From Clostridia bacterium (lineage in GTDB: Bacteria; Bacillota; DTU086), in contig JAAYIF010000032.1 of the NCBI GenBank assembly GCA_012523575.1, positions 1 through 64,000 of the forward strand: a stretch of DNA of 64,000 nucleotides, read 5' to 3'. Below, piece by piece: positions 21,188 through 54,938 of the stretch. Every line of letters starts with the position of its first letter. Positions within the stretch are counted from its first letter, which is position 1. Both the position numbers and the translations under genes were made by a program. The notes below the pieces were generated by a model. That model saw only the letters and a list, made by a program, of their open reading frames with translations. It was not told the origin of the DNA and searched no databases.

Positions 21188-21210
21188 TAATATTGAGCAG
21201 CAAATAAATA

Positions 21211-21296
21211 GCGATAAAGGCAAACCATCCGAAAGGGTGGGACGCAAAGCTATGGGTCTGTAGCCCCGTATTGGGTATGACTGCCAGGCTGCCGCA
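21211..21296 (+). promoter_or_regulatory. Cyclic di-GMP-I (GEMM) riboswitch aptamer
   Basis: The core matches the class I c-di-GMP consensus: AAAGGCAAACC, a P2 hairpin CCATCCGAAAGGGTGG with a GAAA loop, then GACGCAAAGC, a second helix around 21249-21280, and the closing TGCCAGGCTGCCG. GGCA near 21219 pairs with TGCC near 21290 to close P1. It lies 240 bases before the kinase/STAS/phosphatase/FapA operon, so c-di-GMP is expected to control those genes. Confidence 0.93.
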
Positions 21297-21406
21297 GTAA
21301 AAAGGATACTATAATATCATGATGGTATTAATAGAGTGATTTTTGTTTTTTTTAATTTAACAGTATCCTTCCTACGGCAGCTTAATTGGCTGTCGTAGTT
21401 GTTTGT
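21288..21406 (+). promoter_or_regulatory. Riboswitch expression platform with mutually exclusive stems
   Basis: GCTGCCG (21288-21294, part of aptamer P1) can pair with CGGCAGC (21375-21381), extended by AAGGATACT (21302-21310) with AGTATCCTT (21362-21370): an antiterminator. Alternatively CTACGGCAGC (21372-21381) pairs with GCTGTCGTAG (21389-21398), followed by TTGTTTGT: a terminator. Ligand binding should lock P1 and favour the terminator, which predicts an OFF switch. The U-tract is not ideal. Confidence 0.68.
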
Positions 21407-21533
21407 AAACAGAAAAGATAACGTTTAACAAAAAAGAATGTGGCCCGTTAAGTTGGTTGATCTAGAAAATTTGCTGATCTCTTATAAAACAAGTTTGGAC
21501 AGTAAGACCTGGTAGGTGGAAGGGTGGTGAAGT

Positions 21534-22805
21534 ATGAACAGGTGTCAAGAATGCGCAATAAAACATCCGGAACGTAAATGTGAGGAATGTAATAATTTTG
21601 TTCAGCCTAGTCCCCTTCGCAGGGTTCCTTCTCCACCTATAAAAGTAATTTTAGAGGACGAAAACGGAAAAAAATATCCGGCCAACATTTTGGTTTTAAA
21701 TACCACAGAATTTGGGATTGAAACAGAAGCCCCAGTTCCAGGCCGGTACACCATTAAACTTCAGGAAAATTTGTCGGTTGAAGTTGCAGGTGTACCCTTC
21801 AGAGGGAAAAATAACGTTCACGTTTTTGATATTCTGCGCGTGCAAAGGGAGCAGGAGGCTTCTTCACGGCTCAATAAAGAGGAATTTCAGCTGCTTACCG
21901 GGAACATGGGTGAGTTGGTTCAGGAGCTTTCCCACTACTTACCCAAGTACCTTCGAGAATCTGTAAAGAAAAAACTGCTTGCCGAAGTGGAAAAGTCCGA
22001 AATGCTCAAAGCTTTAAAAGTGGGTAGGGTAATGAAATATGAAGGAGGTCGTTTTCGCCATCTTTCTGGTCAGAATGATTTAGATATACCCATGGAGGAA
22101 GCAGAAAAACTCATGCGCCGGGTTATTCGAGGTGCCATGCATCAAAGAGAAGTGATCATCAGTGCCGATGGGAAAAAGGTTTTTGACTTTCACGGGATGC
22201 CCTTTGATCATAAAAGCGGTGGGCTACTGGCCTTTGATGTAACTGAGGTTATTGAAAAAGAGAGAAAAATGCACCAGCAGGAAATGCAGGCTTATAGGGA
22301 TGCCATAGCAGCAGTAACGGGAGGACGGATGCATTTACTCAGTAAGGAAAAAATAGAAAAATTAATTTCCGAAGGTGAAGAACTGGTCAAAGGTAGGGTT
22401 AGGGAGGCCCATGAGATTCCCCAAGCTCGCCAAGTAATCCGTGAAATACTAACTAATCTTGACGACCAGAAACGACACATGATTGAGCTGTGCTTATCAG
22501 AAGCCCTGACCAATGCCTTGAAGCATGCAGGAGGGGGCTATTGGCAGATAAGACAGTTAAAGGATGCTGTTAGGATTATTGTAAAAGATAAAGGTTCGGG
22601 CATAAAAACCAGTGAATTGGCCCGGGCAACGTTGATGCAGCATTATTCCACAAAGGATTCATTAGGCTGTGGATTTACCCTTATGCTCTATTATACAGAT
22701 TCCCTTTACCTATATACAGGAACTTCGGGCACGACTCTGGCAATGGATTTTGGGGTTACACAATCAAATTGCAATAATTTGGAAAAAGAATATTCAATGA
22801 AATAG
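21534..22805 (+). CDS. RsbW-like histidine-kinase-type ATPase with zinc-knuckle, PilZ-like and PAS-like N-terminus
   Basis: 423 residues. Residues 4-19 hold C-x2-C-x8-C-x2-C, a likely zinc knuckle. Residues 34-100 are mainly beta with N56-TTEFG, resembling the N-x-S/T-x-x-G motif of PilZ c-di-GMP receptors, though the first R-x-x-x-R motif is not clear. Residues about 165-250 look like a PAS-type sensor. Residues about 300-415 are a HATPase domain with N-box EALTNALKHA and G1 DKGSGI, as in RsbW/SpoIIAB anti-sigma kinases. I infer it phosphorylates the STAS proteins encoded next. ATG at 21534 after GGGTGGTGAAGT. Confidence 0.78.
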   Translation: MNRCQECAIKHPERKCEECNNFVQPSPLRRVPSPPIKVILEDENGKKYPANILVLNTTEFGIETEAPVPGRYTIKLQENLSVEVAGVPFRGKNNVHVFDILRVQREQEASSRLNKEEFQLLTGNMGELVQELSHYLPKYLRESVKKKLLAEVEKSEMLKALKVGRVMKYEGGRFRHLSGQNDLDIPMEEAEKLMRRVIRGAMHQREVIISADGKKVFDFHGMPFDHKSGGLLAFDVTEVIEKERKMHQQEMQAYRDAIAAVTGGRMHLLSKEKIEKLISEGEELVKGRVREAHEIPQARQVIREILTNLDDQKRHMIELCLSEALTNALKHAGGGYWQIRQLKDAVRIIVKDKGSGIKTSELARATLMQHYSTKDSLGCGFTLMLYYTDSLYLYTGTSGTTLAMDFGVTQSNCNNLEKEYSMK

Positions 22806-22818
22806 GGGTGAGGTAATT

Positions 22819-23157
22819 TTGCTCAAGGTGGATGGCCGCGACGTCCCGGAAGGGTACCGGATAGTTTTACAGGGTGAATTGGATGTTGAAACAGCACCGC
22901 AGTTAAAGGAGGTTGTTGGGGAGGTAGCAGCAAATATTCTTGAGATCGATCTATCAGGGGTTTCCTTTGTAGATTCTACGGGCTTAAAGAGTTTGCTGGA
23001 TATAAGCAATCAATGGGAACAGAGGGGTGGTAGAGTTTCTGTTTTAAACCCACAACCTGAAGTGGCAGAAGTAATGCAGCTGGTGGGCCTGGACAGGCTT
23101 CTTAGTATGAATAATGGAATGAGTAATGAATTGGATCTACGAAGAAAAACAAGGTGA
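22819..23157 (+). CDS. STAS-domain anti-sigma factor antagonist
   Basis: 112 residues from a TTG at 22819 after GGGGTGAGGTAATTT. A complete STAS fold: IVLQGELDVETAPQL, then IDLSGVSFVDSTGLKSL with the phosphorylatable serine in the D-S-T-G-L turn. It belongs to the SpoIIAA/RsbV group, which binds an anti-sigma kinase when unphosphorylated. It follows the kinase gene after 13 bases and precedes the phosphatase gene by 5. Confidence 0.93.
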   Translation: MLKVDGRDVPEGYRIVLQGELDVETAPQLKEVVGEVAANILEIDLSGVSFVDSTGLKSLLDISNQWEQRGGRVSVLNPQPEVAEVMQLVGLDRLLSMNNGMSNELDLRRKTR

Positions 23158-23162
23158 GATAA

Positions 23163-23879
23163 ATGATTGGTTATAACAGAAAAGCAATAAGGGTGGGTAA
23201 ACTGGAAGGGTGTGGAAGCAGTTTGCCTGCTGGGAAGGTTGGAGGGGATTTTTTTGAATTTTTTGTTCACAATAACAAGAATGTTGTTGCTGCCATAGGG
23301 GATGTGATGGGGAAAGGCTTCCCGGCAGCCTGTTTGATGAAAACAATACATACAATGCTTTGTGAATGTGTTAATATTACCCCCCACCCTCTGGAAGTGG
23401 TGCGCCGATTGAATAAAATAGGTGGAGATGAGCTGAGACGGCGGGGAGCTTTTGTTACTCTTTGCATTATATATTGCGATGGGGAAACCGGTCGTCTTTC
23501 CTGCGTCAATGCAGGACACCATCCCCCTATCATTGTGTCCAACGGTGAAGTGAAAGTAGTTCGGTGCCGGGGAGTGGCCTTGGGTCTACTGGAAGATTAC
23601 CTTGGCACAGGGGAGGAAGAAATCTATCTTTCCCCGGGGGATATGGTGGTTATGTATACTGACGGACTGGTGGAAGCCTTTGGTCCAGGGGAAAAAAGGT
23701 ATGGACTGGAACGATTAAAGAAAATAGTTCACCAACAACCCGATGCTGATGCGGCAAAAATGAAACGTTGTATTTTATCTGATTTAAAGAATTTTACCCG
23801 TGGTTATTCCCAAAGGGATGACATCACTTTACTTGTTTTGCGAGTTTTAAAAAAGGCGGGTGAAGGGTGTGGAGATTAG
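23163..23879 (+). CDS. PP2C-type SpoIIE/RsbU serine phosphatase
   Basis: 238 residues, a lone phosphatase domain without a sensor. VGGDFFEFF, AIGDVMGKGFPAA, NAGHHPP, VMYTDGLVEA and QRDDITLLVLR supply the metal-binding aspartates of the SpoIIE/RsbU family. It should dephosphorylate the STAS proteins and oppose the kinase. ATG at 23163 preceded by AAGGTGAGATAA. The end overlaps the start of the second STAS gene by 20 bases. Confidence 0.93.
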   Translation: MIGYNRKAIRVGKLEGCGSSLPAGKVGGDFFEFFVHNNKNVVAAIGDVMGKGFPAACLMKTIHTMLCECVNITPHPLEVVRRLNKIGGDELRRRGAFVTLCIIYCDGETGRLSCVNAGHHPPIIVSNGEVKVVRCRGVALGLLEDYLGTGEEEIYLSPGDMVVMYTDGLVEAFGPGEKRYGLERLKKIVHQQPDADAAKMKRCILSDLKNFTRGYSQRDDITLLVLRVLKKAGEGCGD

Positions 23880-24180
23880 GCTTCAGCATAGGGATGGAGT
23901 GGCGGTTATAAAGGTTTTGGGTGAACTGGACTACAGCAATGTGGAAAAGCTTGAATTTGAGATTAAGCGTCGGTGGGAAAAGGTTATAGAAATAGATTTT
24001 GGAAATATGCGATTCATTGATTCTTCAGGGGTGGGAATGCTTTTAAATCAGGCTAGACGGCTTCATAAGCAGGGTCGTACTCTGAGAATTGTCAATATAC
24101 CTGATTTTATTCGAGAAAACTTAGAAATAATAGGCTATTTCCAGGTTATGGAATGTTTAGAGAGAAATAAAAACATTTAG
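23860..24180 (+). CDS. Second STAS-domain protein
   Basis: 106 residues from the GTG at 23860; a second GTG at 23869 with GGGTGAAG before it is equally possible. The STAS core VAVIKVLGELDYSNVEKLEFE and IDFGNMRFIDSSGVGMLL keeps the serine site (D-S-S-G-V). It differs clearly from the first STAS protein, so the operon encodes two distinct antagonist-type proteins for one kinase and one phosphatase. Confidence 0.9.
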   Translation: MKGVEIRLQHRDGVAVIKVLGELDYSNVEKLEFEIKRRWEKVIEIDFGNMRFIDSSGVGMLLNQARRLHKQGRTLRIVNIPDFIRENLEIIGYFQVMECLERNKNI

Positions 24181-24196
24181 ATGGTGGTGAGCTCTT

Positions 24197-26056
24197 ATGA
24201 AAGGGAAGGATACCGGAGCATTTTATTTGCCCAATGCTGAAACTGAAAATAGAGCTTTTGGGGATAAAGATGCTGATGGTCCATATGCTATGGTAAAGGA
24301 CCAGCGCCTTATCGTTTGCCACCCAAAAGATGGTCCTTATCCCGTTGTGGTTCCTTGCCAAGAGGCGAAATTAATTGTTAACGGCAGGGAGTGTACAGAA
24401 ACCACCCCTGTTACCATAAAGGATACGGTGCGGATAGAAGTAGAAAAAGAAGAACGAAAGGAAGGAAAATGGTCCCTTTCTGTTTCCCCCGATGGGTTGT
24501 ATGCAGAGCTGCGGATACGTCCAACGGTTGTTATTCGCAGGGAGCTATCCTATCTTCCCCCTGCCAGGGTACTGCATTTGAAAGTAGTGGAGCGGGAAGA
24601 ACGCATTCCTCCTTTTACACTGGATGAACTCCTTGAGGAGTTATCCCGACTAGGGATAAATTATGGAATTGATTGGGAAGCGTGTTCCCGTGCCGCTGCA
24701 AGCTGTGATGAGGAAAGGGTAATTGTTGCCCGGGGGGTCCCTGCCCAACCGGGTCGAGATGCCTGGGTGGAATTGCATTTTTCCAATGATTCCAAAATAC
24801 CTGTACCAATAGGAAAAGATGAAATTGTAGTTGATTTAAGAGAACGTTTTATTTTTACTTCTGTGGAACCAGGAGATGTTTTGGCCGTAAAGCATCCCCC
24901 AGAGCAAGGCATTCCGGGAACCAGCGTAAAAGGTGACATCATTGTACCTCCCACACCCCAGGATTGCAGCCTAATTGTAGGTGAAGGTGCTTTTATTACC
25001 CAAGATGGTAAGCAGGCTGTAGCGACCCGCTCTGGACGCCCCATTGCCAAAATAGGGCGCAACAAAATTAAAATATGTGTATTGCCTGAATTGGTGCATC
25101 ACGGTGATGTTGATCTCGCTTCGGGCAACTTAATTTTTAAAGGGGATGTTTTGGTTTCAGGAAATGTTTTGGAAGGGATGACGGTGGAAGCAGGGGGACA
25201 TATTAGAGTAGCGGGATTTGTCTCCCATGCGAAGGTAAGGGCCAATGGTTCTATTTTGATAAAGGGTAATATCTTAGCTTCAGTGGTAGTTGCAGGAGGG
25301 AATAACGCCGTTGCACAAAAATTACAACCGCATATTAAAACATTGGCAACGGGATTACAGGAAATGTCTGCGGCAGTCCGGCAGTTACTGCAGCATCCTG
25401 CTTTTAAGCGGGACGACCTGAAGGGTGGAATTGGTCCTTTGATAAGGCTGCTGCTGGAAAGCAAGTTTTGCAGTCTCCCTTATGCAGTGGATAACCTAAA
25501 GAATATGGTTGAAAATCTTCAGTTTTCTTTATCAACGGAGGATATGAATAATTTTACAAAATTTATTAAAAAAGCCGAATTAGCCTTGATCCGATATCCT
25601 TTGACCGTTCGAAGCTTAGAAGAAATTGAAGCTCTAGCGCAGCAAGCTGCGGAATGGGAACAGGCTTTTTCATCCCTGCCTGCGGAAGAAAGTGATTTAG
25701 TAGTCAGCAGTATTCTCAATTCCAATGTTGTTGCCACCGGTGATATCAGGGTGATAGGAAGTGGCTGCTTCAACTCCAGTATTCATGCAGGTAAAGAAGT
25801 TACCATTTCCGGGGTATTTCGCGGTGGCGAAATACAGGCCGGGGGAAATGTGTATGTTCGGGAAATGGGATCAAAATGTGGAGCTGCTACCAAAATTGTA
25901 ACGGTTTCCACGGCCAAGGTAACCGTGGGATATGCCTTTGATAATGCTACGGTGGTTGTAGGGAAAAAAGTTTACAAATTTAATAGGGAAGAAGCCAATG
26001 TCTGTTTGTGGCTTGATAAAAAAGGAAACCTTAAAGCTAGAAAGATATCGGCATGA
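24197..26056 (+). CDS. FapA/DUF342 domain protein
   Basis: 619 residues. An N-terminal region of about 130 residues, then the DUF342 segment with GVPAQPGRDAWVEL near 186, and GDVLAVKHPPEQGIPGTSV. Two stretches of right-handed beta-helix type repeats follow (about 300-360 and 505-600, rich in G-x-V-x-x-x-G turns), separated by a helical region (about 370-500) that may form a coiled coil. DUF342 proteins are called FapA; in Vibrio a member influences polar landmarking, but the general function is unclear. It is the last gene of the c-di-GMP-riboswitch operon. ATG follows GGTGGTGAGCTCTT. Confidence 0.87.
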   Translation: MKGKDTGAFYLPNAETENRAFGDKDADGPYAMVKDQRLIVCHPKDGPYPVVVPCQEAKLIVNGRECTETTPVTIKDTVRIEVEKEERKEGKWSLSVSPDGLYAELRIRPTVVIRRELSYLPPARVLHLKVVEREERIPPFTLDELLEELSRLGINYGIDWEACSRAAASCDEERVIVARGVPAQPGRDAWVELHFSNDSKIPVPIGKDEIVVDLRERFIFTSVEPGDVLAVKHPPEQGIPGTSVKGDIIVPPTPQDCSLIVGEGAFITQDGKQAVATRSGRPIAKIGRNKIKICVLPELVHHGDVDLASGNLIFKGDVLVSGNVLEGMTVEAGGHIRVAGFVSHAKVRANGSILIKGNILASVVVAGGNNAVAQKLQPHIKTLATGLQEMSAAVRQLLQHPAFKRDDLKGGIGPLIRLLLESKFCSLPYAVDNLKNMVENLQFSLSTEDMNNFTKFIKKAELALIRYPLTVRSLEEIEALAQQAAEWEQAFSSLPAEESDLVVSSILNSNVVATGDIRVIGSGCFNSSIHAGKEVTISGVFRGGEIQAGGNVYVREMGSKCGAATKIVTVSTAKVTVGYAFDNATVVVGKKVYKFNREEANVCLWLDKKGNLKARKISA

Positions 26057-26100: not shown

Positions 26101-26132
26101 CACCCCGAATAGATTATATTCGGGGTGATTTT
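26101..26132 (+). promoter_or_regulatory. Hairpin covering the ribosome-binding site of the next gene
   Basis: CACCCCGAATA (26101-26111) pairs perfectly with TATTCGGGGTG (26117-26127) around GATTA. The 3' arm contains GGGGTG, the only Shine-Dalgarno sequence for the ATG at 26133, and is followed by ATTTT. It may act as a weak terminator for the preceding operon, a translational lock for the next gene, or both. Confidence 0.75.
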
Positions 26133-26921
26133 ATGGACAATACATTGGAGCAGCGGGTTTTGTTTTTAGCGGATGAATTTGTACAAATATTAATTGACTT
26201 ATATGATGCCGAACCGGAAAAGGAAAAAGAGTTAATTTTTAAAGGGGAAGAAATTTTCTTTGAATTGGCTCAGGAAGCGTTGAAAATTCTGCAGGGTAAA
26301 AGGGAATACCTTGAGACTATGCTTAAACAGCTGGTGGCTCAGAAGCTGCCGTCTCACATAATAATGGATAGTTTTGAGGGATTTGAGGAAAAAATGCAGT
26401 ACTTAATTCAAAGGAATTTAGATAAGATTCAGGAACAGCTCATGGCAAATATGGGGAATGATTTTGAAGATATAAATGACGAAGCTTCGGATATGACAGT
26501 TAAAGGACGCGCGGATATATTGGAAGATAATGAGCCCGATGAAGAAAGGGAAGAAGAAAAGTTCATCGAAAAAGATGATACAGTCTATGCTGAGAAAACC
26601 TGTGTGAAGAGTTCCATGGAAGACCTTATTAAAAAGTTGTTCCCCAAGGAAGAATTGGTAAAGGATTATAAAATAGATAATGTAATTTTAAAATATTATC
26701 TTCCCGGGTTAGGATTGGCCTTTTGGGGGAGCTCTAATATGCGCAAGGGTTATATTAATGTAATGGAAATGTGCTGTGAAAAGGAAGGAATTTTATTACT
26801 GAAGATAAATCCCCAAAAGGTTGAGAATTATAAAAGGTTGAAAAGGGAAATTAAACACATATTAGCCCAAAAAGATTCAGTAGATAAAAGGATTTTTGAT
26901 TTATCTAAAGAATATATTTAA
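26133..26921 (+). CDS. Hypothetical acidic protein
   Basis: 262 residues, family not recognised. Residues 1-110 are helical with heptad-like spacing. Residues 118-160 are very acidic and low in complexity (NEPDEEREEEKFIEK). Residues 185-262 look like a separate alpha/beta domain (YYLPGLGLAFWGSSNMRKGY, then a C-terminal helix). No signal peptide or membrane segment. Its start codon sits directly behind the hairpin at 26101-26127. Confidence 0.75.
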   Translation: MDNTLEQRVLFLADEFVQILIDLYDAEPEKEKELIFKGEEIFFELAQEALKILQGKREYLETMLKQLVAQKLPSHIIMDSFEGFEEKMQYLIQRNLDKIQEQLMANMGNDFEDINDEASDMTVKGRADILEDNEPDEEREEEKFIEKDDTVYAEKTCVKSSMEDLIKKLFPKEELVKDYKIDNVILKYYLPGLGLAFWGSSNMRKGYINVMEMCCEKEGILLLKINPQKVENYKRLKREIKHILAQKDSVDKRIFDLSKEYI

Positions 26922-26949: not shown

Positions 26950-27210
26950 TTCGTGACGTTAAAAGCTGTGAAGGGGCCAAGCCGTAACTGTTTTTTACAG
27001 AGAGCCGTGTACGCTGAGAAACGGTAAAAACAGTTACTGCAAGCCATCCCGGAGCTGCTGGTGATTTAAGCCTTGCCGGTTGACCCCGTTATCGAGTCTT
27101 GTTTAGAGGGGGGCTGCCCGTTGGTGGTTTTATACTATACCTAAGGGGCAGTCAACTAGGGTGGTACCGCGAGAAAATTCTCGTCCCTTGGGGCGGGAAT
27201 TTTTATTTTA
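26950..27210 (+). promoter_or_regulatory. T-box leader, alanine specifier (GCC)
   Basis: Stem I is seen as GTAACTGTTTTT (26984-26995) pairing with AAAAACAGTTAC (27026-27037), enclosing AGAGAGCC. The specifier, aligned on the glyQS pattern (triplet then A-T/U-C-C), reads GCC at 27043-27045, an alanine codon. The T-box AGGGTGGTACCGCG is at 27158-27171; its UGGU bulge matches an A discriminator, as in tRNA-Ala. The terminator AAATTCTCGTCCC / GGGCGGGAATTT (27175-27202) plus TTATTTT completes it. Uncharged tRNA-Ala should allow transcription of the two genes downstream. Confidence 0.93.
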
Positions 27211-27233: not shown

Positions 27234-27716
27234 ATGCGTAAGGAAATTTTGGAACTTTTAGAAACTGACAGCAAACTGACTCCTTATCAAATTGCAACAA
27301 TGCTAGGCATGGATAAGTCCAAGGTTGAGAAGGAAATAGAAACTATGGAAGAAGAAGGAATTATCCTTCAATACAGCACACTGATTAACTGGGAAAAAGT
27401 AGGTAATGAACAGGTTTCTGCATTAATAGATGTGAAGGTGATACCCCAGAGGGGGGTTGGTTTTGATGATATTGCGGAAAGGATATATCGATTCCCCGAG
27501 GTGCGTTCTGTAATGCTTATGTCAGGAAGCTATGATCTTTCCGTGGAGGTTACGGGAAGGAATATAAAAGAAGTGGCACAGTTCGTAGCCCAAAAATTAG
27601 CAACCCTAGAACATGTTCAGAGCACCGTGACCCATTTTGTTCTAAAAAGATACAAACAACATGGTGTTATTCTTGATAAAAAGGAAAAAGATCGCCGGCA
27701 GGTGATAAGTCCATGA
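27234..27716 (+). CDS. AsnC/Lrp family transcriptional regulator
   Basis: 160 residues. An N-terminal helix-turn-helix (LTPYQIATMLGMDKSKVEKEI) and a C-terminal RAM domain (about 70-145) with the effector-site region VMLMSGSYDLSVEV. Lrp-type proteins bind amino acids and regulate their metabolism. It is co-transcribed with the aminotransferase behind an alanine T-box and overlaps it by ATGA, so alanine or a related amino acid is a plausible effector (inference). ATG at 27234 after GGAGGTGTAAGTTGTA. Confidence 0.93.
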   Translation: MRKEILELLETDSKLTPYQIATMLGMDKSKVEKEIETMEEEGIILQYSTLINWEKVGNEQVSALIDVKVIPQRGVGFDDIAERIYRFPEVRSVMLMSGSYDLSVEVTGRNIKEVAQFVAQKLATLEHVQSTVTHFVLKRYKQHGVILDKKEKDRRQVISP

Positions 27717-28915
27717 ATGTGAAAAAGGCCAATAGAATTTCTCCTTTGGTGAAAAACCTTCCTCCTTCGGGAATTAGAAAATTTTTTGATTTGGTTGCCA
27801 ATACGAAAGGTGTTATATCTTTGGGGGTTGGAGAGCCAGATTTTGTTACACCCTGGCATATTCGCGAAGCCTGTTTTTATTCATTGGAGCAGGGCTATAC
27901 AATGTACACATCCAATTGGGGTTTGCCGGAATTAAGAAAGGAAATTTCAAAATTTTTGTATGAGCGATATGGCCTTGGATACAACCCCGAGAACGAAATT
28001 GTTGTTACGGTGGGGGCCAGTGAGGCTGTCGACCTGGCTCTACGCACAATTATTATGCCAGGAGATGAAGTAATTATACCGGAGCCAACTTATGTTTCTT
28101 ATAAACCCTGTGCCGTTTTGGCTGGAGCCGAGCCTGTAACGGTTCAGACATCTTATGAAAACGAATTTAAATTAAAGGAAGAGGATTTAAATGAAAAAAT
28201 AAATTCCAGAACTAAGGCATTAATTTTATGTTATCCCAACAACCCCACCGGGGCTATTATGGAAAAAGAGGATTTAGAAGGAATAGCCAGAATTGCAGTG
28301 CAGAACGATTTAATTGTAATTTCCGATGAGATATACAGCGAGTTGACTTATAAAGGCTCCCATGTTTCCATTGCATCTTTTCCTGGAATGAGGGAAAGGA
28401 CAATAGTAATAAACGGCTTTTCAAAGGCTTGGGCAATGACAGGTTGGAGAATAGGATTTGCTGCCGGGCCCCGGGATATTATCGAGGAAATGGTAAAAAT
28501 TCATCAGTACACAATTTTGTGTGCCCCGGTCATGGGCCAGATGGCGGCCCTTGAGGCATTAAAAAATGGCAGTGAAGAAGTTGAGAAGATGGTTACCCAA
28601 TACAATCAAAGAAGGCGCTTTGTGGTGAGCAAATTGAGGGAAATGGGGTTAGAATGTTTTGAACCCAAGGGAGCTTTCTATGTGTTTCCCTCTATAAAAA
28701 GTACGGGGATGTCATCGGAGGAATTTGCCGAGGAACTGCTGAAGAAGGAAAAGGTGGCAGTGGTACCTGGCAGTGCTTTTGGGAGATCAGGAGAGGGGCA
28801 CATACGCATTTCCTACGCTGCATCATTGAAAAACCTTACCAAAGCACTGGACAGGATGGCTAACTTTCTCGACAGCTTAAATAAAAATATAGTGGACAGG
28901 GTTATGGAGAACTAG
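27713..28915 (+). CDS. Class I/II PLP-dependent aminotransferase, probably alanine-forming
   Basis: 400 residues, fold type I. YPNNPTGA, SDEIYSELTY and the PLP-binding lysine in NGFSKAWAMTGWRIGF are intact, with an arginine near the C-terminus (HIRISYA) for the substrate carboxylate. The sequence alone places it among aspartate/alanine/aromatic aminotransferases. The alanine-specific T-box upstream suggests it makes alanine, which would make it an AlaA-type enzyme; that assignment is inferred from regulation. Confidence 0.9.
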   Translation: MNVKKANRISPLVKNLPPSGIRKFFDLVANTKGVISLGVGEPDFVTPWHIREACFYSLEQGYTMYTSNWGLPELRKEISKFLYERYGLGYNPENEIVVTVGASEAVDLALRTIIMPGDEVIIPEPTYVSYKPCAVLAGAEPVTVQTSYENEFKLKEEDLNEKINSRTKALILCYPNNPTGAIMEKEDLEGIARIAVQNDLIVISDEIYSELTYKGSHVSIASFPGMRERTIVINGFSKAWAMTGWRIGFAAGPRDIIEEMVKIHQYTILCAPVMGQMAALEALKNGSEEVEKMVTQYNQRRRFVVSKLREMGLECFEPKGAFYVFPSIKSTGMSSEEFAEELLKKEKVAVVPGSAFGRSGEGHIRISYAASLKNLTKALDRMANFLDSLNKNIVDRVMEN

Positions 28916-53654: not shown

Positions 53655-54938
53655 TTGAAAAAAAAACATTTAGTCAGCTATTACAGCGATGTTACTTCTC
53701 TTCCCAACAGAAGAAACCTTTACCTTTATTTAAGGAATAAAAAGGAATTTTCCATTCTCCTTATTGATTTGGGCAGATTGAAAGGAGTAAATGAAACATA
53801 TGGTTTTATTTACGGCGATATGCTCTTAAATTTTGCCGCAAAGGAAATAGTACGCATTGTTGGGGTAGAGGGTAAGGTGTTCCATCTTCAGGGGGAAGAA
53901 TTTGCAATTTTTATCCGGGAAAGGGATCCTGAAAAAATTGTTGCATGGGTTGAAGATTTATGTGAGGAGTTTAAAAAGGCAACCATTTGGATAAATGGTA
54001 AAAAAAAGCGGATGCCCTTTAATTTAAAAATTGGAATATACATATCTTCAACGGATGTTCCTGAATCGCCGGATGATATTTTAAGAAAGGCTTATCTTGC
54101 GGTGATGAAAGCGAAGGAGCAGAAAAGCACAAATTATGCCTTTTATGATACCGAGCAGGATAAAAATATGAAGAAAAAAATGTTGCTAATTGAAAATTTG
54201 GAAAAGGGCATAAAGGGTAAAGAGTTTTATTTGTGCTATCAGCCTGTTCTGAATCTGCGAAGTGAAAAGATTGTGGGAGCTGAATCCCTCTTAAGATGGA
54301 ATTGTTTTTCCATAGGTGAAATCCCTCCTTCGGATTTTATTCCCATTGTTGAGGAGGAAAATTATATTAATGATCTAGGTAATTTTGTTTTTAAGCAATC
54401 TTGTAGATTTTTAAAGGAAGTTAAGAAGGTTATTCCCTCATTTAAAATTAATATAAATATTTCTCCCATTCAGCTGGAAAATCAATGTTTTCTGGATCAA
54501 GTGCAGGAAATTGTAGAAAAGGAAGGGGTAAATTTTAGTGACATTAAGTTTGAAATTACGGAAAACCAAATACTTAGGGACGAGGACTATAATAAGAAAA
54601 CATTGAAAAAATTATTAAATTTAGGGGCTTCTGTGGTACTGGATGATTTCGGGAGTGGATATTCTTCCATTAAAAATTTAGTTCTCTTTCCAGTGTCGGA
54701 AATAAAAATTGATTCCTTTCTGGCTAAGGAAATGATGACCGATAAGAAAGCTGAAATTTTGGTTAGTTCCATTATTTTTGCGGCAAAGGAATCAGGATAT
54801 CTTTTGACCCTGGAGGGGGTTGAAACTGAAGAGCAGTATTGTAAAGCAAAAGAGATGGGATTTCACATGGTACAGGGATATTATGTAAGCAAGCCGGTTT
54901 TGGAGGAAAATTTTATAGAGAAGTTCGTTGCCGATTAA
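53655..54938 (+). CDS. GGDEF-EAL protein, probable c-di-GMP phosphodiesterase
   Basis: 427 residues, no membrane segment or sensor domain. The GGDEF domain (about 10-160) has Q-G-E-E-F where G-G-D/E-E-F is needed for synthase activity, so it is probably inactive. The EAL domain (about 180-420) keeps E-S-L-L-R-W (E-x-L), NINISPIQL, FEITEN, VVLDDFGSGYSS, KID, EGVE and QGYYVSKP, all main catalytic residues. It should degrade the ligand of the riboswitch at 21211. TTG start at 53655 behind TTGGAG. Confidence 0.88.
   Translation: MKKKHLVSYYSDVTSLPNRRNLYLYLRNKKEFSILLIDLGRLKGVNETYGFIYGDMLLNFAAKEIVRIVGVEGKVFHLQGEEFAIFIRERDPEKIVAWVEDLCEEFKKATIWINGKKKRMPFNLKIGIYISSTDVPESPDDILRKAYLAVMKAKEQKSTNYAFYDTEQDKNMKKKMLLIENLEKGIKGKEFYLCYQPVLNLRSEKIVGAESLLRWNCFSIGEIPPSDFIPIVEEENYINDLGNFVFKQSCRFLKEVKKVIPSFKININISPIQLENQCFLDQVQEIVEKEGVNFSDIKFEITENQILRDEDYNKKTLKKLLNLGASVVLDDFGSGYSSIKNLVLFPVSEIKIDSFLAKEMMTDKKAEILVSSIIFAAKESGYLLTLEGVETEEQYCKAKEMGFHMVQGYYVSKPVLEENFIEKFVAD

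Follow-up and report, generated by a model that had tools for sequence, protein, structure and literature searches.

The stretch of DNA analysed here (the window) comprises 64,000 nucleotides of contig JAAYIF010000032.1 from a Clostridia bacterium (GenBank assembly GCA_012523575.1; GTDB lineage Bacteria; Bacillota; DTU086). It contains a five-gene operon on the + strand (21534-26056; intergenic gaps of 13, 5, -20 and 16 bases) which encodes a SpoIIAB/RsbW-type kinase, a STAS antagonist, a PP2C phosphatase, a second STAS antagonist and a FapA (DUF342) protein, and which is preceded by a class I aptamer for cyclic diguanosine monophosphate (c-di-GMP) (Table 1). The second STAS gene starts inside the phosphatase gene, with 20 bases in common. 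The operon looks self-contained, because a terminator-like hairpin comes after the FapA gene. No sigma-factor gene lies within the operon, and the homologous operons sampled showed none either; a canonical spoIIA operon (L097), on the same contig at a distance of about 80 kb, is the nearest sigma/anti-sigma set that was found.

Table 1. Features of the riboswitch leader and the operon, in window coordinates (aa, amino acids).
Feature	Coordinates	Strand	Basis
Class I c-di-GMP aptamer (Rfam RF03167, c-di-GMP-I-GGC)	21210-21297	+	cmscan
Antiterminator 5' strand: aptamer 3' end GCTGCCGCAG (21288-21297) and GGATACT (21304-21310)	21288-21310	+	complementary to 21372-21381 and 21362-21368, respectively
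Switching strand: AGTATCC (21362-21368) and CTACGGCAGC (21372-21381)	21362-21381	+	CTACGGCAGC doubles as terminator 5' arm
Leader intrinsic terminator: hairpin (21372-21398) and T-rich tail TTGTTTGT	21372-21406	+	pattern scan
Kinase, 423 aa, HATPase_c_2	21534-22805	+	Pfam 5.6e-11
STAS antagonist 1, DSTG phosphosite conserved	22819-23157	+	Pfam STAS 7.6e-18; alignment of 19
SpoIIE/RsbU-type PP2C phosphatase, catalytic domain alone	23163-23879	+	Pfam SpoIIE 2.3e-43; motifs
STAS antagonist 2, DSSG phosphosite conserved	23860-24180	+	Pfam STAS 9e-17; alignment
Module-type FapA (DUF342) paralogue, 619 aa; proposed output	24197-26056	+	Pfam FapA_N 9.8e-36, FapA 2.2e-31
Operon-end terminator-like hairpin, 11 pairs, T-rich tail	26101-26127	+	pattern scan

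The covariance-model score of the aptamer exceeds the gathering threshold of RF03167 (74 versus 59 bits, E = 1.1e-15), and the RF01051 model also matches the same aptamer, at 80 bits. Read by eye against Vc2 numbering, the ligand-discriminating position carries a G (within ...AAAGGCAAACC); an A in its place marks cyclic GMP-AMP (cGAMP) variants. We infer c-di-GMP to be the ligand of this aptamer. The 1.64-Mb source genome has eight class I aptamers, this one included.

Between aptamer and kinase gene the leader holds an intrinsic terminator with the arms CTACGGCAGC and GCTGTCGTAG, separated by a loop and followed by TTGTTTGT. Its 5' arm also pairs, with one mismatch, with the aptamer 3' end GCTGCCGCAG, and this second pairing is extended by GGATACT/AGTATCC. 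The unconstrained minimum free energy (MFE) fold of the leader (-67.1 kcal/mol, z -4.0) uses the antiterminator pairing. Leaders of 13 homologous operons (the window and 12 relatives) were compared: the equivalent of the terminator hairpin is present in all 13, the aptamer strand forms the antiterminator in the free MFE fold of 11, and the terminator forms in all 13 when the aptamer strand is withheld. In a shuffle control that required both pairings and a T-rich tail, the arrangement arose in 0 of 60 shuffles for the window and in 0-6 of 60 for the other leaders. The pairing arms are nearly invariant, and the basis for reading the leader as a switch is therefore conserved complementarity and not proven covariation.

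The same strand logic is found in Cd1, the class I switch of flgB in C. difficile, which is an experimentally studied OFF switch (PMC9262584); the functional class I switches of that species behave as off switches (PMC6200980). In Cd1, a terminator strand T pairs either with the aptamer strand A, giving an antiterminator, or with a strand H, giving the terminator (PMC9262584, PMC6200980). The corresponding arrangement, a terminator 5' arm which is complementary also to the aptamer 3' strand, was found in the window and in the 12 related leaders. Unlike Cd1, the window aptamer is of the GGC subtype and precedes a partner-switching operon instead of a flagellar one; a separate class I aptamer lies before flgB in the source genome. 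From the geometry of the terminator 5' arm and the aptamer 3' strand, the fold results in the 13 leaders and the strand logic of Cd1, c-di-GMP should switch the operon OFF.

Homologues of the kinase occur in 19 of the 120 genomes searched, the source genome counted, and further ones in named genomes. The order kinase-STAS-PP2C-STAS-FapA is kept in 16-17 further genomes (L039-L055; the contig of L041 ends inside the PP2C gene) from Desulfofundulus, Desulfoscipio, Desulfallas, Moorella, Thermosediminibacter and other lineages, and 14 of the 15 homologous operons having enough upstream sequence are preceded by a class I aptamer. On this genomic evidence a chance assembly of aptamer and genes is ruled out, because aptamer and gene order are found together again and again in genomes of anaerobic bacteria. 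Halanaerobia, Thermincola and PH28_bin88 differ in the phosphatase, the order and the riboswitch; FapA and a STAS gene still adjoin the kinase. In one genome (L017; G016:C1:309289-311961) the gene for the kinase is interrupted and its first part is followed by a transposase-like frame; the aptamer and the phosphatase, STAS and FapA genes remain.

The kinase begins with a zinc-ribbon-like CxxC-x8-CxxC set (invariant in 11 aligned homologues, incomplete in L060 and L061), followed by a PilZ-like beta barrel (about residues 36-111) and a region at about 165-240 that is PAS-like by its strand/helix pattern only. Its C-terminal part is a SpoIIAB/RsbW-type ATPase (profile match to SpoIIAB 1til, 2.9e-12) with invariant N, G1 and G2 boxes of the GHKL type (E323, N327, H331, D352, G354, G356, G378 and G380), and the Foldseek matches of the full kinase were chiefly histidine kinases, SpoIIAB and RsbW. 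In the phosphatase the metal-binding acidic residues are kept, as are the motifs GGDFF, GDVMGKG, YTDGL and RDDITL; both STAS proteins retain the DSxG phosphosite. The kinase would thus be expected to phosphorylate the STAS serine and the PP2C phosphatase to remove the phosphate. In its kinase, DSxG antagonists and SpoIIE/RsbU-type phosphatase the module resembles SpoIIAA/AB/E and RsbV/W/U. It differs from these in the missing sigma factor, the zinc-ribbon-like and PilZ-like N-terminal parts of the kinase, a phosphatase without sensor domain, the presence of two STAS proteins, a FapA gene in last place and its transcription behind a c-di-GMP riboswitch. The original prediction had described a class I c-di-GMP riboswitch ahead of these five genes, a complete kinase-antagonist-phosphatase switch and no encoded sigma factor, and had proposed a search for the same combination in other genomes; the Rfam match, the intact catalytic motifs and phosphosites, the gene content of the operon and its recurrence agree with it on these points.

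The suggestion of a second c-di-GMP input, via a possible PilZ-like domain of the kinase, did not hold up in the same way. Pfam searches, a search of the genome, profile-profile comparison, AlphaFold2 modelling with Foldseek and a motif check reduced it to a weak fold resemblance. The isolated barrel is modelled confidently (predicted local distance difference test score of 90), and the PilZ domains of Alg44, BcsA and MapZ are among its top Foldseek matches (probability up to 0.99-1.00), with weak values of E (0.05-0.5) and a template modelling score of about 0.5. Across 25 kinase homologues the ligand motif RxxxR is absent from the alignment, [DN]xSxxG is degenerate and Pfam PilZ gives no match; a comparison of the barrel with the PilZ profile reached 1.5% probability, and a PilZ search of the source genome finds only YcgR. 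A second direct input through the kinase is not supported by these data, because the PilZ sequence tests fail and the ligand motif is missing. That c-di-GMP acts twice, on the riboswitch and on the barrel, would be compatible with the explanation preferred below, and we consider it very unlikely.

The FapA protein scores well above the curated cut-offs of both its families (FapA_N, 123 versus 27 bits; FapA, 110 versus 31 bits). It is the likeliest output of the partner switch, and was one of two possible outputs suggested before, because in distant relatives the kinase still has FapA and STAS as neighbours. The FapA of flagellar operons is a different paralogue; it lies next to fliA (sigma-28) at about 20 of the 30 FapA loci that were sampled. 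The second FapA paralogue of the source genome (L096:6781-8610; G000:C43) is not beside fliA and is convergent with a gene for an Mrp/NBP35-type ATPase. A comparable regulation is known from Vibrio, where FapA binds EIIA-Glc only when EIIA-Glc is dephosphorylated (PMC6877527). Here, too, a small partner is proposed to bind FapA only while that partner is unphosphorylated; the partner in Vibrio is a protein of the phosphotransferase system, whereas the one proposed here is a STAS protein that a dedicated kinase and phosphatase would serve.

Many relatives carry an additional gene for a putative phosphodiesterase. An HD_5 gene that has the motifs HDxGK...HHERWDGKGYE and a Spo0E-like tail (SQWLD) separates aptamer and kinase in Desulfoscipio, Desulfallas, Moorella, UBA2598 and others. 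DNA remnants of it persist in L040, L042 and L043, the gene is broken in L051, and other HD-GYP-type genes take the same place in D. australicus (L050), Thermosediminibacter (L046) and PH28_bin88 (L056). A fusion kinase of the composition REC-PAS-HD-GYP-HATPase_c_2 (L063:6576-8585) lies directly 5' of STAS-PP2C-STAS-FapA. In Desulfallas (L049:12856-16654) and PH28_bin88 (L057:5546-8937) a c-di-GMP-I-type aptamer precedes an HD_5-HATPase_c_2 fusion gene, with STAS genes near it in both and a DUF5317 gene in L049 (a similar frame in L057); each is another riboswitch-associated partner-switch locus. The presence of the HD-GYP arm requires at least three changes on the kinase tree. The window locus has no HD-GYP-type gene, and two HD_5 proteins are encoded elsewhere in the source genome. 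The HD-GYP-like protein L044:7244-7993 and its homologues in L041, L048, L052, L054 and L056 (GYE or GYA variant), with their C-terminal Spo0E-like domain (SQWLD), raise the possibility of a link between c-di-GMP and sporulation.

We consider it moderately probable that the operon belongs to the motile state at low c-di-GMP and combines an OFF riboswitch, a partner switch and FapA as output, with an HD-GYP arm in relatives. At high c-di-GMP, the aptamer would fold round its ligand and hold its own 3' strand, so that the terminator forms and the operon is silent. At low c-di-GMP, as the conserved anatomy of the leader suggests, this strand would pair with the terminator 5' arm and allow read-through. 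The kinase would then phosphorylate one STAS protein or both on the serine, and the phosphatase would reverse this, in line with the intact active sites and phosphosites. One unphosphorylated STAS protein, most likely STAS2, may bind FapA and thereby gate flagellar assembly or polar placement, a step suggested by the gene neighbourhood. In the many relatives whose kinase has an HD-GYP-type gene upstream or includes the domain by fusion, c-di-GMP might be lowered further and the ON state locked; this arm is absent at the window locus of the source genome. More broadly, we put forward tentatively, as a serious possibility, that this is an undescribed circuit widespread in Firmicutes, in which a STAS switch acts directly on FapA under a c-di-GMP OFF riboswitch, often with its own HD-GYP protein, and which would form a self-reinforcing switch of the motile state.

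Several points weigh against this explanation. Without the terminator being required, the complementarity to the aptamer 3' end is weak in the window, being reached by 104 of 2000 shuffles, and the case for the switch therefore rests on geometry and conservation. The folding energies were computed without ligand and without co-transcriptional kinetics, and both the OFF polarity and the ligand binding of the leader are predictions. The T-tail TTGTTTGT is short and interrupted. A scan of the region 5' of the aptamer found no good promoter, and an alignment of the upstream regions gave no convincing conserved one. No aptamer was detected upstream of the Thermosediminibacter operon (L046). Gene adjacency is the sole link that suggests a contact of STAS or kinase with FapA, the biochemistry of FapA is poorly known, and its presumed flagellar role is drawn from Vibrio and from the fliA adjacency of a different paralogue. 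The co-occurrence with flagella was given little weight as support: the kinase-bearing relatives are all FliG-positive, and FliG is present in 102 of the 120 genomes anyway.

The kinase is closest to the sigma-binding proteins SpoIIAB and RsbW, and the source genome has a canonical spoIIAA-spoIIAB-sigF operon as well as FliA; the module could accordingly be imagined as an ordinary anti-sigma switch for a factor encoded elsewhere (e.g. SigF or another of the sigma-70 family), with FapA as a co-transcribed passenger. We regard this as rather unlikely, since the relatives examined showed no sigma gene beside the module, FapA has stayed with kinase and STAS across distant lineages, and SigF already has SpoIIAB as its partner. 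Another scenario places the output in c-di-GMP metabolism, a STAS protein tuning a phosphodiesterase or cyclase as in HsbA-HsbD, BgrV-BgrR or SiaC-SiaD and FapA being accessory. In many relatives HD-GYP genes or domains border the kinase or form one protein with it, which would fit this scenario, as would the cyclases controlled by known partner switches (PMC8457831). It appears improbable, given that the phosphodiesterase gene is absent at the window locus and a remnant or broken in L040, L042, L043 and L051, and that the kinase-FapA set is kept nevertheless.

The c-di-GMP-linked partner switches known so far act on cyclases or FlgM (PMC8457831, PMC8256260). HsbR-HsbA-HsbD, BgrV-BgrR and SiaABCD are partner switches connected with c-di-GMP and with swimming or biofilm (PMC8457831, PMC8256260), and the operon would share this connection. 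In contrast to these systems, where a STAS-type protein regulates the cyclase or FlgM, here c-di-GMP would regulate the transcription of the circuit, and the neighbour is FapA, joined in relatives by HD-GYP. A literature search, with most subscription journals outside it, found no c-di-GMP riboswitch combined with either a partner switch or FapA/DUF342. Most known partner switches control sigma factors, and most known c-di-GMP riboswitches control end products; the operon joins both. It also points to FapA, a protein of poorly known function, as an output and names concrete partners for it, and the genomes of the relatives connect HD-GYP phosphodiesterases with SpoIIAB-type kinases, in some cases by fusion into a single protein.

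A c-di-GMP signal is plausible in the source genome because seven GGDEF proteins are encoded. A GGDEF-domain protein, a possible source of c-di-GMP, lies in the window (53688-54128; 428-amino-acid frame). The other class I aptamers of the genome precede flgB-flgC-fliF-fliG, chemoreceptor (methyl-accepting chemotaxis protein) genes, a camelysin-like gene and a transglutaminase-like gene. As flagellar and chemoreceptor genes follow these aptamers, the operon is best read as part of a swimming programme at low c-di-GMP. For the other riboswitches of the genome, MFE alone gave no clear ON/OFF assignment. At L071:7536-11611 (G000:C46) a class I aptamer is followed by two camelysin-like genes and a sortase gene, and then by tandem class I aptamers before the transglutaminase-like gene. 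At L073:2010-3310 (G000:C47) two near-identical aptamers each precede a chemoreceptor frame, the second of which is a C-terminal fragment; this suggests a recent duplication or an assembly join.

Two neighbours in the window are separate from the operon. Just past its terminator lies a gene for a 262-amino-acid protein of unknown family (26133-26921), which occupies the same position in the nearest relative (L039). It is followed by a T-box leader (26959-27191; 98 bits) before an Lrp/AsnC-type regulator and an aminotransferase (27234-28915).

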